The notes under the pieces: model-generated
The model's input: the letters and a program-made list of their open reading frames with translations, nothing else
The model's database searches: none
What the model was told of the DNA's origin: nothing
In this document: positions 11,149-14,233 of the stretch, piece by piece
Layout: the number at the start of each line of letters is the position of its first letter
Numbering within the stretch: position 1 is the stretch's first letter
From: Vicingaceae bacterium
GTDB lineage: Bacteria > Bacteroidota > Bacteroidia > Flavobacteriales_E > Vicingaceae
Assembly (NCBI GenBank): GCA_029210015.1
Contig: JARGOE010000005.1
Coordinates: 11,473-49,630, forward strand
DNA: 38,158 nucleotides
Direction of reading: 5' to 3'
Program-made: the position numbers and the translations under genes

Positions 11149-12783
11149 ATGAGGAAATATTTACTACTATTTTTTGCTGTTACTCTTCTGAGTACAGCGG
11201 GTTTTTCACAAGAAGATAAAAAAGCAAGCAAGGTAACTTATAAGAAAAAAATGATGGATGCCCGTCATGAATATTTAACTGAAAATAACGTAAGAGCAGC
11301 TTTAAATATTTATCGTGAGTTATTAAAAGATTTTACCAATGATGCAAAAGTGAATTACAGAATTGGTGAATGTCATTTTAGAATGAAAAACTTTGAGTTA
11401 GCTGTAGAATATTTTCAGAATGCTAAAAAACTAGACGAAGAAGTTGATGATGAATTGTTTTTTAACTTAGGACAAGCTTATCATAGAAATGGGCAGCTAG
11501 ATGAATCTTTAGAGGCTTATAACATATATAATTCTACTGCTTCAAAGAAAGACCGTAAATTTCATAATGTAGCATTGCGTATTTCTCAGATAGATTATGC
11601 TAAGAAAATGATGGCTAGTCCAGTAAAAGTTACGATTGAAAATTTAGGAGATAATATTAATTCAAGAGGTGGTGATTATGCCCCTTCAATTTCTGCTGAT
11701 GGTAAAACTATGATATTTACTTCTAGAAGATCAGATACTAAAGGTGGTGGAGTAGATAAAGCAGGAGATTTTAAGTACTTTGAAGATATTTATATTTCTC
11801 ATTGGGATTCAGCTGAAAATATTTGGGGAAAAGCTAGACCAATTGAAGGGAAATTAAACACTGAAGGGCATGATGCTGGATTAAGTATTTCTCCTGATGG
11901 AAATCAAATTTTTATTTATCGTAATGACGGAGTACTTTATATTGGTGACATTTTTGTGTCGAAAAGAAGAAAAAGCTCAGGAACTTGGGGAACACCTAAA
12001 CCTCTTGAAAAGCCAATAAATACTTCTTACTACGAAAGTTCAGCCTGTCTTACTGCAGATGGAAATAGAATGTTTTTTGTAAGTGAAAGAATTGGGAAAA
12101 AGAATGGTGCTCAGGGACGTGGAGATATTTATGTAGCGGAAAGAATTTCAAAATCTGTTTGGGGAGAGCCTAAAAATTTAGGACCAGTTGTTAATACTCC
12201 AGAAGATGAAGCAGCTGTATTTATTCATCCAGATGGTAAAACAATCTTTTTTAGTTCTAATGGTCATTTAGGCCTAGGAGATTATGATGTATTTATGTCC
12301 AGAATGAATGAGGATAGTACTTGGACTAAACCAGAAAACTTAGGTTACCCTATTAATACTATTGGAAAAGATGCTCATTTTGTATTAAGTACTGATGGAA
12401 AAACTGCTCATTATTCTACTGTAAAAGAAGATGGTATGGGAGAAAGAGATATTTACAAAATAGATATGAGTAATTATCCTGTATTAACTGAGGGTGTTTC
12501 TATTAACCTTTCTATATTAAAGGGGACTATTAAAAATGGTGAGGATAATATCGTAGGTCAACTTACTTTTAAAGATGATTCTGGAAAGGAAGTTGCCAAG
12601 ACTGTTTGTAATGATGATGGGGACTTTTTTATAACCTTACCTGGAGGTAAAAAATATAATGTTTCCGTTTCTGCTAAAGGATATACACCTAAAGATGTAG
12701 TTGTTGATTTAGCTTTAGGAAAGGGTTCTACACATTCTCATACTGAAGTGATTGATTTGGTTAAATTACCAGAACAAGAATAA
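11149..12783 (+). CDS. exported TPR-PD40 propeller protein, PorE-like but without OmpA domain
   Basis: The 544-residue protein begins with a signal peptide (MRKYLLLFFAVTLLSTAGFSQ, cut near residue 20). TPR-like helices follow at about 30-130 (AALNIYRELLKDF, YRIGECHFRMKNFELAVEYF). A beta-propeller of PD40 repeats spans about 170-435, with the recurring pattern SxxDGKxxxFxS (for example PSISADGKTMIFTSRR). A carboxypeptidase-regulatory-like beta domain ends the protein at about 458-530 (GQLTFKDDSGKEVA). This order matches PorE, a periplasmic T9SS component, and related OmpA-family proteins, but these continue into a peptidoglycan-binding OmpA_C domain. Here the reading frame stops at 12783 and the neighbouring yigZ stop codon follows at once. 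It may be a shorter paralogue acting in envelope scaffolding or T9SS assembly. Confidence 0.85.
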   Translation: MRKYLLLFFAVTLLSTAGFSQEDKKASKVTYKKKMMDARHEYLTENNVRAALNIYRELLKDFTNDAKVNYRIGECHFRMKNFELAVEYFQNAKKLDEEVDDELFFNLGQAYHRNGQLDESLEAYNIYNSTASKKDRKFHNVALRISQIDYAKKMMASPVKVTIENLGDNINSRGGDYAPSISADGKTMIFTSRRSDTKGGGVDKAGDFKYFEDIYISHWDSAENIWGKARPIEGKLNTEGHDAGLSISPDGNQIFIYRNDGVLYIGDIFVSKRRKSSGTWGTPKPLEKPINTSYYESSACLTADGNRMFFVSERIGKKNGAQGRGDIYVAERISKSVWGEPKNLGPVVNTPEDEAAVFIHPDGKTIFFSSNGHLGLGDYDVFMSRMNEDSTWTKPENLGYPINTIGKDAHFVLSTDGKTAHYSTVKEDGMGERDIYKIDMSNYPVLTEGVSINLSILKGTIKNGEDNIVGQLTFKDDSGKEVAKTVCNDDGDFFITLPGGKKYNVSVSAKGYTPKDVVVDLALGKGSTHSHTEVIDLVKLPEQE

Positions 12784-13389
12784 TTAAGCGGTTCTTAAAA
12801 AACTTATTTTTAAACCATCAATTTTTTCTAGTAACTCAATAATGGTTATGGCTTCGCTTTGCCTAATTCTAAACTGAATAGTTCCTTTTTCTTCAAGTAC
12901 TTGTGAAATAATATCTAGTTGATGTTGTTTAACAAAATTCATTACATCACTCAAGATTTCATATCCAAACTCTAGTTGGTAAAAATTATCAACGGTACGG
13001 TCTACAATTTTACTATTCTGCAACGCTTCTTTTGCAGCTTCCTTATAAGCAGTAATCAATCCTCCAACACCAAGCTTGGTTCCCCCAAAATATCGTACTA
13101 CAATTATTGCTATATTAGTAACATTAAAAGATTGAATTTGCCCGTAGATTGGAGCTCCAGCTGAATTGTTAGGTTCACCATCATCATTATAACGATATTC
13201 ATTCTCACTTAGTCCAATTTTAAAAGCATAGCAATGGTGACGAGCATCATGATATTCTCTTTTTATTTCGTTTTGAAATATCTTAAATTCATCTTCAGAG
13301 TATATAGGTGAAGCAATAGCAATAAACTTACTTCCTTTTTCTTTGTAAATTCCTTTAGAATTAGCTGCTATGGTTTTATATATATCGAT
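12784..13389 (-). CDS. yigZ: YigZ/IMPACT family protein, non-canonical (ATC) start proposed
   Basis: YigZ/IMPACT proteins share an N-terminal ribosomal S5-like UPF0029 domain. The bacterial function is not settled, and the eukaryotic relative IMPACT regulates GCN2. Reading the minus strand in one open frame gives YKTIAANSKGIYKEKGSKFI, then YHDARHHCYAF (near residue 60), DDGEPNNSAGAPIYG, VVRYFGGTKLGVGGLITAY and the C-terminal DUF1949-type region. All of these are family hallmarks. The frame has no ATG, GTG or TTG between an upstream stop and the conserved start. The best-fitting codon is ATC at 13389-13387 (I/M-D-I-Y-K-T-I), giving 201 residues, the normal length. The only TTG (13059) would delete more than half of the protein. 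The stop abuts that of the PD40 gene. Confidence 0.85.
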   Translation of the reverse strand: MDIYKTIAANSKGIYKEKGSKFIAIASPIYSEDEFKIFQNEIKREYHDARHHCYAFKIGLSENEYRYNDDGEPNNSAGAPIYGQIQSFNVTNIAIIVVRYFGGTKLGVGGLITAYKEAAKEALQNSKIVDRTVDNFYQLEFGYEILSDVMNFVKQHQLDIISQVLEEKGTIQFRIRQSEAITIIELLEKIDGLKISFLRTA

Positions 13390-13396
13390 AGTTAAG

Positions 13397-13404
13397 CAAA
13401 GGTA
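13397..13404 (-). promoter_or_regulatory. Bacteroidota -7 element for yigZ
   Basis: On the minus strand this reads TACCTTTG, an exact TAnnTTTG match. The predicted transcription start is about 13390, one base before the proposed ATC start. The mRNA would then be leaderless or nearly so. Confidence 0.45.
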
Positions 13405-13447
13405 ATTATATTAGAATAATTTCCTTTAAAACAACTACTTTTACGGT

Positions 13448-14233
13448 ATGAATAAGTTTAAGCAAGCATTAGATTTTGCAAAATATCGACTTAAATCTGG
13501 GAATGAGCATAGTATTCATTCTCCTTTTGTTTTTGAATTATACAATGATGTAATTACAGATGATAATCCTTTTTATATTTATAATGATATAGAATCGATA
13601 AGGGCAAAGCTGTTGTTAACAGATATGGAAATCTCTATAGATGACCATGGTGCTGGATCAACTGTTAATTCATCTAATAAAAGAAAGATTAAAGATATAG
13701 CTAAACACACTTTAAAGTCTCCTAAGTATGGGCAATTATTGTTTAGGTTGGTTAATCGATTTAAACCTAAAACCATTTTAGAATTAGGAACATCTTTAGG
13801 TGTTAGCACCATGTATATGGCTGCTGTGGCAAAAAACATTAATGTAATTACAGTTGAAGGTTGTAATAATACTGCAAAGGTAGCTCAGGTTAATTTTGAT
13901 AAGATAGGGTTTGAAAATATTACTTTGAATCACGATACTTTTGATAGTTTTTTACCGTCATATCTTAAAACTGTTAATCATCTTGATTTTGTTTTTTTTG
14001 ATGGGAACCATACAAAAGAGGCCACTTTGAATTATTTTAATTTATGTGCAAACAAAGCGAATCAAGAGGCTGTATTTGTTTTTGATGATATACATTGGAG
14101 TGAAGGAATGACTGAAGCGTGGGAAATAATAAAACAAAACGATAAGGTAACTACTACCATAGATTTACACTTTGTAGGAATAGTCTTTTTTAATCCTGAA
14201 TTAAGTAAAGAAAATTTTTTATTGAAGTTTTAA
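13448..14233 (+). CDS. class I SAM-dependent methyltransferase (Methyltransf_24-like)
   Basis: A 261-residue cytoplasmic protein. The Rossmann-type SAM motif I, ILELGTSLGVSTMYMA, lies near residues 109-124. The acidic residue that ends strand 2 is in VITVEGCNN. Motif II/III-like HLDFVFFDGNHTKEATLNYF follows near 178-197, and VFVFDDIHWSEGM near 212-224. The FDG/DDIH pairs resemble O-methyltransferases that bind a divalent metal, such as the catechol O-methyltransferase group. The substrate is unknown. The first 105 residues, which include HSIHSPFVFELYNDVI, form a conserved N-terminal extension seen in Bacteroidota homologues. It lies upstream of ffh but is probably separate from it, since ffh has its own promoter match. 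Confidence 0.85.
   Translation: MNKFKQALDFAKYRLKSGNEHSIHSPFVFELYNDVITDDNPFYIYNDIESIRAKLLLTDMEISIDDHGAGSTVNSSNKRKIKDIAKHTLKSPKYGQLLFRLVNRFKPKTILELGTSLGVSTMYMAAVAKNINVITVEGCNNTAKVAQVNFDKIGFENITLNHDTFDSFLPSYLKTVNHLDFVFFDGNHTKEATLNYFNLCANKANQEAVFVFDDIHWSEGMTEAWEIIKQNDKVTTTIDLHFVGIVFFNPELSKENFLLKF

Follow-up and report, generated by a model that had tools for sequence, protein, structure and literature searches.

A proposed AUC start codon in a yigZ-like gene of a Vicingaceae bacterium, and apparently recurrent AUC/AUU-type starts in yigZ and ribD of related Bacteroidota

Where does translation begin in a gene whose reading frame offers no ATG, GTG or TTG ahead of the conserved N-terminal block of its product? 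The question is raised by a yigZ-like gene in a stretch of 38,158 nucleotides from a Vicingaceae bacterium (contig JARGOE010000005.1, positions 11,473 to 49,630), hereafter called the window. The frame lies on the minus strand and is open from 13410 to 12784. Reading from the in-frame TAA at 13413-13411 (the original prediction had placed this stop at 13410-13412, which is corrected here), the codons TAT AAT TAC CTT TGC TTA ACT ATC (Y N Y L C L T I) lead into the conserved block GAT ATA TAT AAA ACC ATA (D I Y K T I), and codon reading bears out the earlier observation that the frame is open without any in-frame ATG, GTG or TTG between the stop and YKTI. The wider claim that none occurs in any frame that could lead in holds for the yigZ frame but not beyond it, as a TTG is present in another frame at 13399-13397; it is followed by a stop after seven codons and would be usable only with a frameshift. 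The first canonical start in the yigZ frame is a TTG located 117 codons after the stop, whereas the remaining 31 of the 32 genes called in the window by a crude procedure have an ATG (28) or a TTG (3) no further than 25 codons from the preceding stop. The reading that we favour, with a probability of about 0.87, is that translation begins at the ATC at 13389-13387, which stands at the position originally given for it. Under this reading, the gene would extend over 12784..13389 on the minus strand and encode 201 residues.

The family assignment rests on the open frame and on profile scores. The UPF0029 domain (Pfam PF01205) is recognised at residues 18-123 with 123.5 bits against a cut-off of 27, and the NCBIfam YigZ model TIGR00257 yields 149.8 bits (E 7e-44). 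Since the latter score is below the curated cut-off of 167.95, the product is classed here as a YigZ-type protein of the UPF0029/IMPACT family, and not as a certified TIGR00257 member. A divergent gene on the plus strand (13448..14233) codes for a predicted methyltransferase (Pfam Methyltransf_24), and 58 bp separate its ATG from the ATC of yigZ. On the other side, a convergent plus-strand gene delimited from frame calls (11149..12783) adjoins the yigZ end, and DNA resembling its 3' end was also seen by eye behind yigZ in four relatives (L002, L006, L010 and L011). In E. coli, the ATG of yigZ overlaps the pepQ stop.

Fourteen genomes of the window's genus were searched, and nine gave a yigZ match. 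Comparison of the codon in such close relatives had been put forward as a check in the original prediction, and ATG proved not to be general there: in four of the nine genes (the window genome G000, G003, G005 and G011) ATC directly precedes GAT or GAC, with no canonical start within 12 codons, and in the other five the ATG lies one codon before this position, with AAA, TCT, ACA, ATT or ATT as the next codon. In g5, which by yigZ similarity is the closest genus outside that of the window, TTG occupies the ATC position in three of four genes (L005, L008 and L111), and in L009, the remaining gene, ATG is at codon -2, one codon upstream of that position. The notion that ATC occupies precisely the initiator position of homologues is thus right for three g5 genes and for three further species of the genus, but not for its five ATG-bearing members or for L009. 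A change of a single base from ATG to ATC, offered initially as an alternative, was rejected: in the nearest relative (L002, ATG AAA GAC), aligned without gaps by eye, the ATG falls on the window's ACT and the AAA on its ATC, so that the ATG sits one codon upstream, and ATC recurs in three other assemblies of the genus.

The surroundings of this codon differ among the four genes. It lies 2 nt after the stop of the upstream gene in G005 and G011, and 52 nt after it in G003; ATC has therefore been kept despite differing upstream contexts. In G011, CTG and ATT precede it (CTG ATT ATC in a row), which renders the start of that gene ambiguous. ATC represents 8 of the 88 Ile codons of the four genes, and this rarity makes four ATC starts notable. 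On a yigZ tree, the window gene is placed apart from the other three, so the state either arose more than once within the genus or was lost by other members. From these comparisons, the putative AUC start is common to part of the genus and is one case of a recurrent pattern, and the use of AUC proposed originally is well supported, by these four of nine members as well as by the cases found elsewhere.

With regard to Bacteroidota more broadly, 327 loci yielded 306 distinct yigZ genes, of which L259 (genome G710), with a frame that opens within the conserved block, was left out, leaving 305; that gene is possibly broken or affected by an assembly fault. The class-level sample comprised 30 loci and 40 stretches from the better-scoring end of 256 matching genomes, and that of family f54 comprised 30 loci and 80 stretches from the better-scoring end of 346. 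For genus g248, 35 of 38 genomes matched a query with an ATT start, by which they were ranked, and the best 30 loci were taken. Identical sequences in named records led us to infer that f54 corresponds to Flavobacteriaceae, g248 to Lutibacter and g103 to Polaribacter. Among these better-scoring matches, 24 of the 305 genes have no ATG, GTG or TTG within 12 codons of the conserved start: four in the window's genus, 17 in the Lutibacter group, one in each of two other f54 genera (L186 with ATC and L246 with ATT), and one in a Flavobacteriales metagenome-assembled genome (L039, ATT). All 24 possess ATT or ATC at codons -6 to -1, compared with 62 of the 281 canonical genes (Fisher p 4.6e-15, kinship ignored), although this latter figure implies that mere presence is weak evidence. 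At least 11 changes between the canonical and non-canonical states are needed on the FastTree yigZ tree, which was built without the start region.

In the Lutibacter group, 17 of the 30 genes shown from the best 30 loci are non-canonical. By eye, 16 of these 17 carry ATT at codon -4, the position at which canonical yigZ genes start most often (131 of 281); the ATG of the group's ATG genes is mostly at -5, not at -4. Three further genes counted as canonical on account of a GTG at -11 or an ATG at -7 (L066, L098 and L310) also have ATT at -4. An isolate, Lutibacter maritimus DSM 24450 (L070), is among the carriers of ATT in yigZ.

Other genes of the same loci served as controls. Across the 306 loci, the longest frames that do not overlap were re-clustered, and ten families besides yigZ and ribD were considered; a canonical start within 25 codons was missing in 0 of 1094 members of these neighbouring families, and by the same rule in 22 of 300 yigZ and 9 of 162 ribD genes, one of the nine (L218) having ATA and not ATC or ATT. 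Against this background, the missing starts of yigZ exceed chance. A first, cruder control run had returned no missing starts in families 2-6, and some in families 7 (5/22), 8 (8/19), 9 (2/13), 10 (10/13) and 11 (5/12); we judged families 7-9 to be antisense frames, and 10 and 11 to result from an anchor placed before the Met. As a positive control, the ten infC genes of the window's genus all start with ATA (nine) or ATC (one, in G005), that of the window genome itself being L345 (G000:C29:9789-9992), and 20 of 27 relatives (L329-L355) likewise have an infC without a canonical start.

The ribD genes were followed up in the Polaribacter group, in a sample made of the best 30 of 96 matching genomes (97 searched) with 17 named loci added, three duplicates removed and one locus without a match removed. 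A canonical start is lacking within 14 codons in 18 of the 43 distinct genes, a proportion which overstates the true frequency since the sample was ranked by similarity to a ribD with an ATC start. All 18 show ATC (13) or ATT (5) at the position where, by eye, 16 of the 25 others have TTG, GTG or ATG. The ribD genes recorded as having no ATG, GTG or TTG within 14 codons are L049, L051, L059, L080, L086, L099, L386-L389, L391, L393, L396, L400, L403-L407 and L412, and the isolates P. vadi, P. porphyrae and P. glomeratus (L049, L059 and L080) are carriers of ATC. Weak starts of the AUC/AUU type thus appear to have been reached repeatedly by related bacteria in both yigZ and ribD.

Several other explanations of the window gene have to be weighed against an AUC start. 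Its genome is metagenome-assembled, in 121 contigs and 82.3% complete, and a sequencing or assembly error could in principle mask a true ATG; the recurrence of ATC in three further assemblies of the genus, the ATT and ATC codons of the Lutibacter and Polaribacter isolates and the absence of missing starts from the ten control families make this highly implausible, the least probable account of those considered. Hardly more credible is a pseudogene whose start has been lost and whose translation has ceased, although two features would fit it, namely, the lack of a canonical start in the first 117 codons and the separation of the gene from an EamA-like gene which precedes yigZ in several relatives. 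The frame is open over its full length, and the dN/dS ratios are low: 0.053 for L006/L007, 0.100 for L006/L011 and 0.114 for L007/L011, and 0.155 and 0.156 for the window gene (L001) versus L006 and L007, all of these genes having ATC. The dS of the five pairs ranges from 0.87 to 1.61, exceeding 1.4 among L001, L006 and L007, values above 1 being near saturation. Seven pairs of the Lutibacter group gave ratios of 0.055 to 0.177, except for one of 0.26 with a dS of 0.17. Judged by these ratios, the YigZ proteins are under purifying selection and not in decay. Initiation might also take place elsewhere, at a canonical codon that is out of frame or well upstream, or at a near-cognate CTG, ATT or GTT beside the ATC. 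The out-of-frame TTG of the window, the open frames of G005 and G011, which reach back beside the upstream gene to a TTG 20 codons away, and the CTG ATT ATC series of G011 would be in line with it. We nevertheless hold it to be improbable, given that the window's TTG leads to a stop so soon and that ATC is, by eye, the sole candidate start common to all four ATC genes.

Another account, compatible with an AUC start but rather doubtful, is that AUC is used on a nearly leaderless mRNA. In Flavobacterium, the refined -7 element is TAHHTTTG, placed 4-5 nt from the transcript start; leaders exceed 10 nt in 87% of the genes with a probable promoter, and Bacteroidota are described as a phylum without Shine-Dalgarno (SD) use (PMC6847099). 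The TAnnTTTG reported originally at 13397-13404 is indeed present, as TACCTTTG at 13404-13397 on the minus strand, 7 nt before the ATC, and it fits the refined consensus. The published spacing would set the transcript start at 13392 or 13391 and leave a leader of 2-3 nt, where the original prediction had expected a start about one base before the ATC. In addition, a 14-mer that spans this element (TTACCTTTGCTTAA, window 13392-13405) recurs just once across 415 loci, where it precedes a trkA-like gene of the window genome. Against the leaderless account, TAnnTTTG occurs in the window at chance frequency (64 found versus 66.5 expected), and it is absent within 70 nt upstream of the genus's three other ATC yigZ genes, two of which follow the stop of an upstream gene by 2 nt. 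Moreover, a -7 element is located 19-22 nt upstream in 17 of the 24 genes with a non-canonical yigZ start, implying leaders of about 14-18 nt, so the use of AUC or AUU does not depend on a leaderless mRNA; the idea that leaderless promoters generally underlie AUC starts finds no support here, though for the window gene such a promoter may apply. Leaderless mRNAs are described in PMC6847099 as having an AUG at or near the 5' end, and the codon of the window gene is AUC. Finally, excess IF3 is described as inhibiting leaderless mRNAs too (PMC2268962), and leaderlessness alone would thus not free AUC from IF3.

The stretch before the ATC, which holds the candidate promoter, resembles the tail of EamA-like genes (a family named by resemblance to L002) when the two are anchored at their ends. 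Over 20-22 nt, 16 of 21 positions are shared with L006 (reached in 4 of 5000 shuffles) and 15 of 21 with L002 (8 shuffles), followed by 13 of 20 with L004 (70 of 5000) and 14 of 22 with L003 (84); no likeness was seen with L009, and free local alignment with L006 did not rise above shuffles. This end-anchored similarity is suggestive of a 'promoter' derived from an EamA-like tail, which again would speak against a leaderless transcript. An EamA-like gene precedes yigZ in several relatives, not in the window; it is intact on another contig of the window genome (C45), from which it follows either that yigZ has been separated from it or that a contig is misjoined. The second copy of TTACCTTTGCTTAA is found on that contig (L415, G000:C45), between the intact EamA-like gene and the trkA-like gene, the latter named by eye, and the EamA-like gene of C45 ends in a different tail. 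A trkA-like neighbour behind yigZ in relatives might have accounted for the shared 14-mer, but a search of the flanks of 11 loci by its N-terminal motif returned none. Most Lutibacter-group loci have in common a promoter-like sequence around GATATATTTG, some 20 nt ahead of the yigZ start.

If translation does begin at AUC, the codon would be read by the initiator tRNA, which pairs with the AU of AUC and is mismatched at the third base, and the product would begin with fMet-Asp-Ile-Tyr-Lys-Thr-Ile. Initiation would probably be weak, and the expression of yigZ should be low and dependent on IF3. By analogy with infC and sigR, IF3 may repress initiation at the yigZ AUC, in which case YigZ would be kept at a low level that rises when IF3 is scarce. 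Ribosomes could initiate directly or, in G005 and G011, reinitiate after the upstream stop, both routes being possible. The sequence around the codon gives little sign of compensation for a weak start. A 4-nt SD core at positions -18 to -4 is present in 0 of the 24 non-canonical and 2 of the 281 canonical yigZ genes, and no clear Kozak-like enrichment in A was observed, with A at -3 in 10 and at -6 in 14 of the 24. As for the codon itself, ATT represents 210 of the 303 Ile codons of the Lutibacter set, and 1 of the 11 conserved Ile columns is also entirely ATT; constraint on the third base of the start ATT is at best weakly indicated, being not clearly above that on other Ile codons.

Start codons of this class are best known from infC, which begins with ATT in E. 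coli and ATC in Streptomyces (PMC5472188), and with AUA in S. aureus (PMC13009471). The AUU, AUC or AUA start of infC, through which IF3 regulates its own synthesis, thus belongs to the same class as the proposed start of the window yigZ, whereas in the yigZ family a weak start is confined to 24 of the 305 genes. To our knowledge, YigZ is not an initiation factor, and hence, unlike for infC, a feedback loop acting on the codon where its synthesis starts is not known.

There are parallels outside infC as well. Streptomyces sigR, which starts with GTC, is, like yigZ, a non-infC gene with a start outside ATG, GTG and TTG, and was wrongly annotated; it differs by its codon and phylum, and repression by IF3 is described as shown by experiment in its case (PMC5472188). 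In S. aureus, cvfC1 (AUU) and ccpN (AUA) are reported to carry conserved near-cognate starts that lower expression, at sites with a predicted extended SD sequence (PMC13009471), in contrast to the complete lack of an SD core in the non-canonical yigZ genes. The Borrelia burgdorferi gene pncA/BBE22 also resembles yigZ in having a near-cognate start (AUU) overlooked by databases, and the longer protein was confirmed there; the account concerns a single gene, and, as far as its available text goes, repeated evolution is not a topic (PMC13398362). A further non-infC case is pcnB of E. coli, which Binns and Masters reportedly found in 2002 to be limited by its AUU start. E. coli uses SD sequences, unlike the setting of yigZ described here.

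Taken further, these observations allow a broader proposal, which we advance tentatively and consider possible, though not probable. In Bacteroidota, AUC and AUU starts may be a regular device outside infC; yigZ and ribD would gain and lose them repeatedly and form, together with infC, a small set of genes whose output follows the IF3 level, the class of the start codon alone, without SD, setting and regulating their expression. Very few non-canonical bacterial start codons have been characterised experimentally, according to PMC5472188, and the AUC/AUU class is met here in an SD-free phylum, at several points of the tree. It affects two genes other than infC, and named isolates are among its carriers. 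Among the literature matches listed, no title or abstract mentions AUC or AUU starts in yigZ or ribD, or outside infC in Bacteroidota, and a prior report may exist. Gene finders restricted to ATG, GTG and TTG would truncate or drop such genes, as is apparent from the window, where the first canonical start lies so deep in the frame. The class also makes it testable how ribosomes without SD pairing pick one AUC or AUU among others nearby.

Starts other than ATG are in any case common at these loci. TTG and GTG are frequent in yigZ (104 of 300 genes in the surveyed loci), and they are also very frequent in ribD (88 of 162) and in the EamA-like family (65 of 137) of the yigZ loci; several families adjoining yigZ begin nearly always with ATG.
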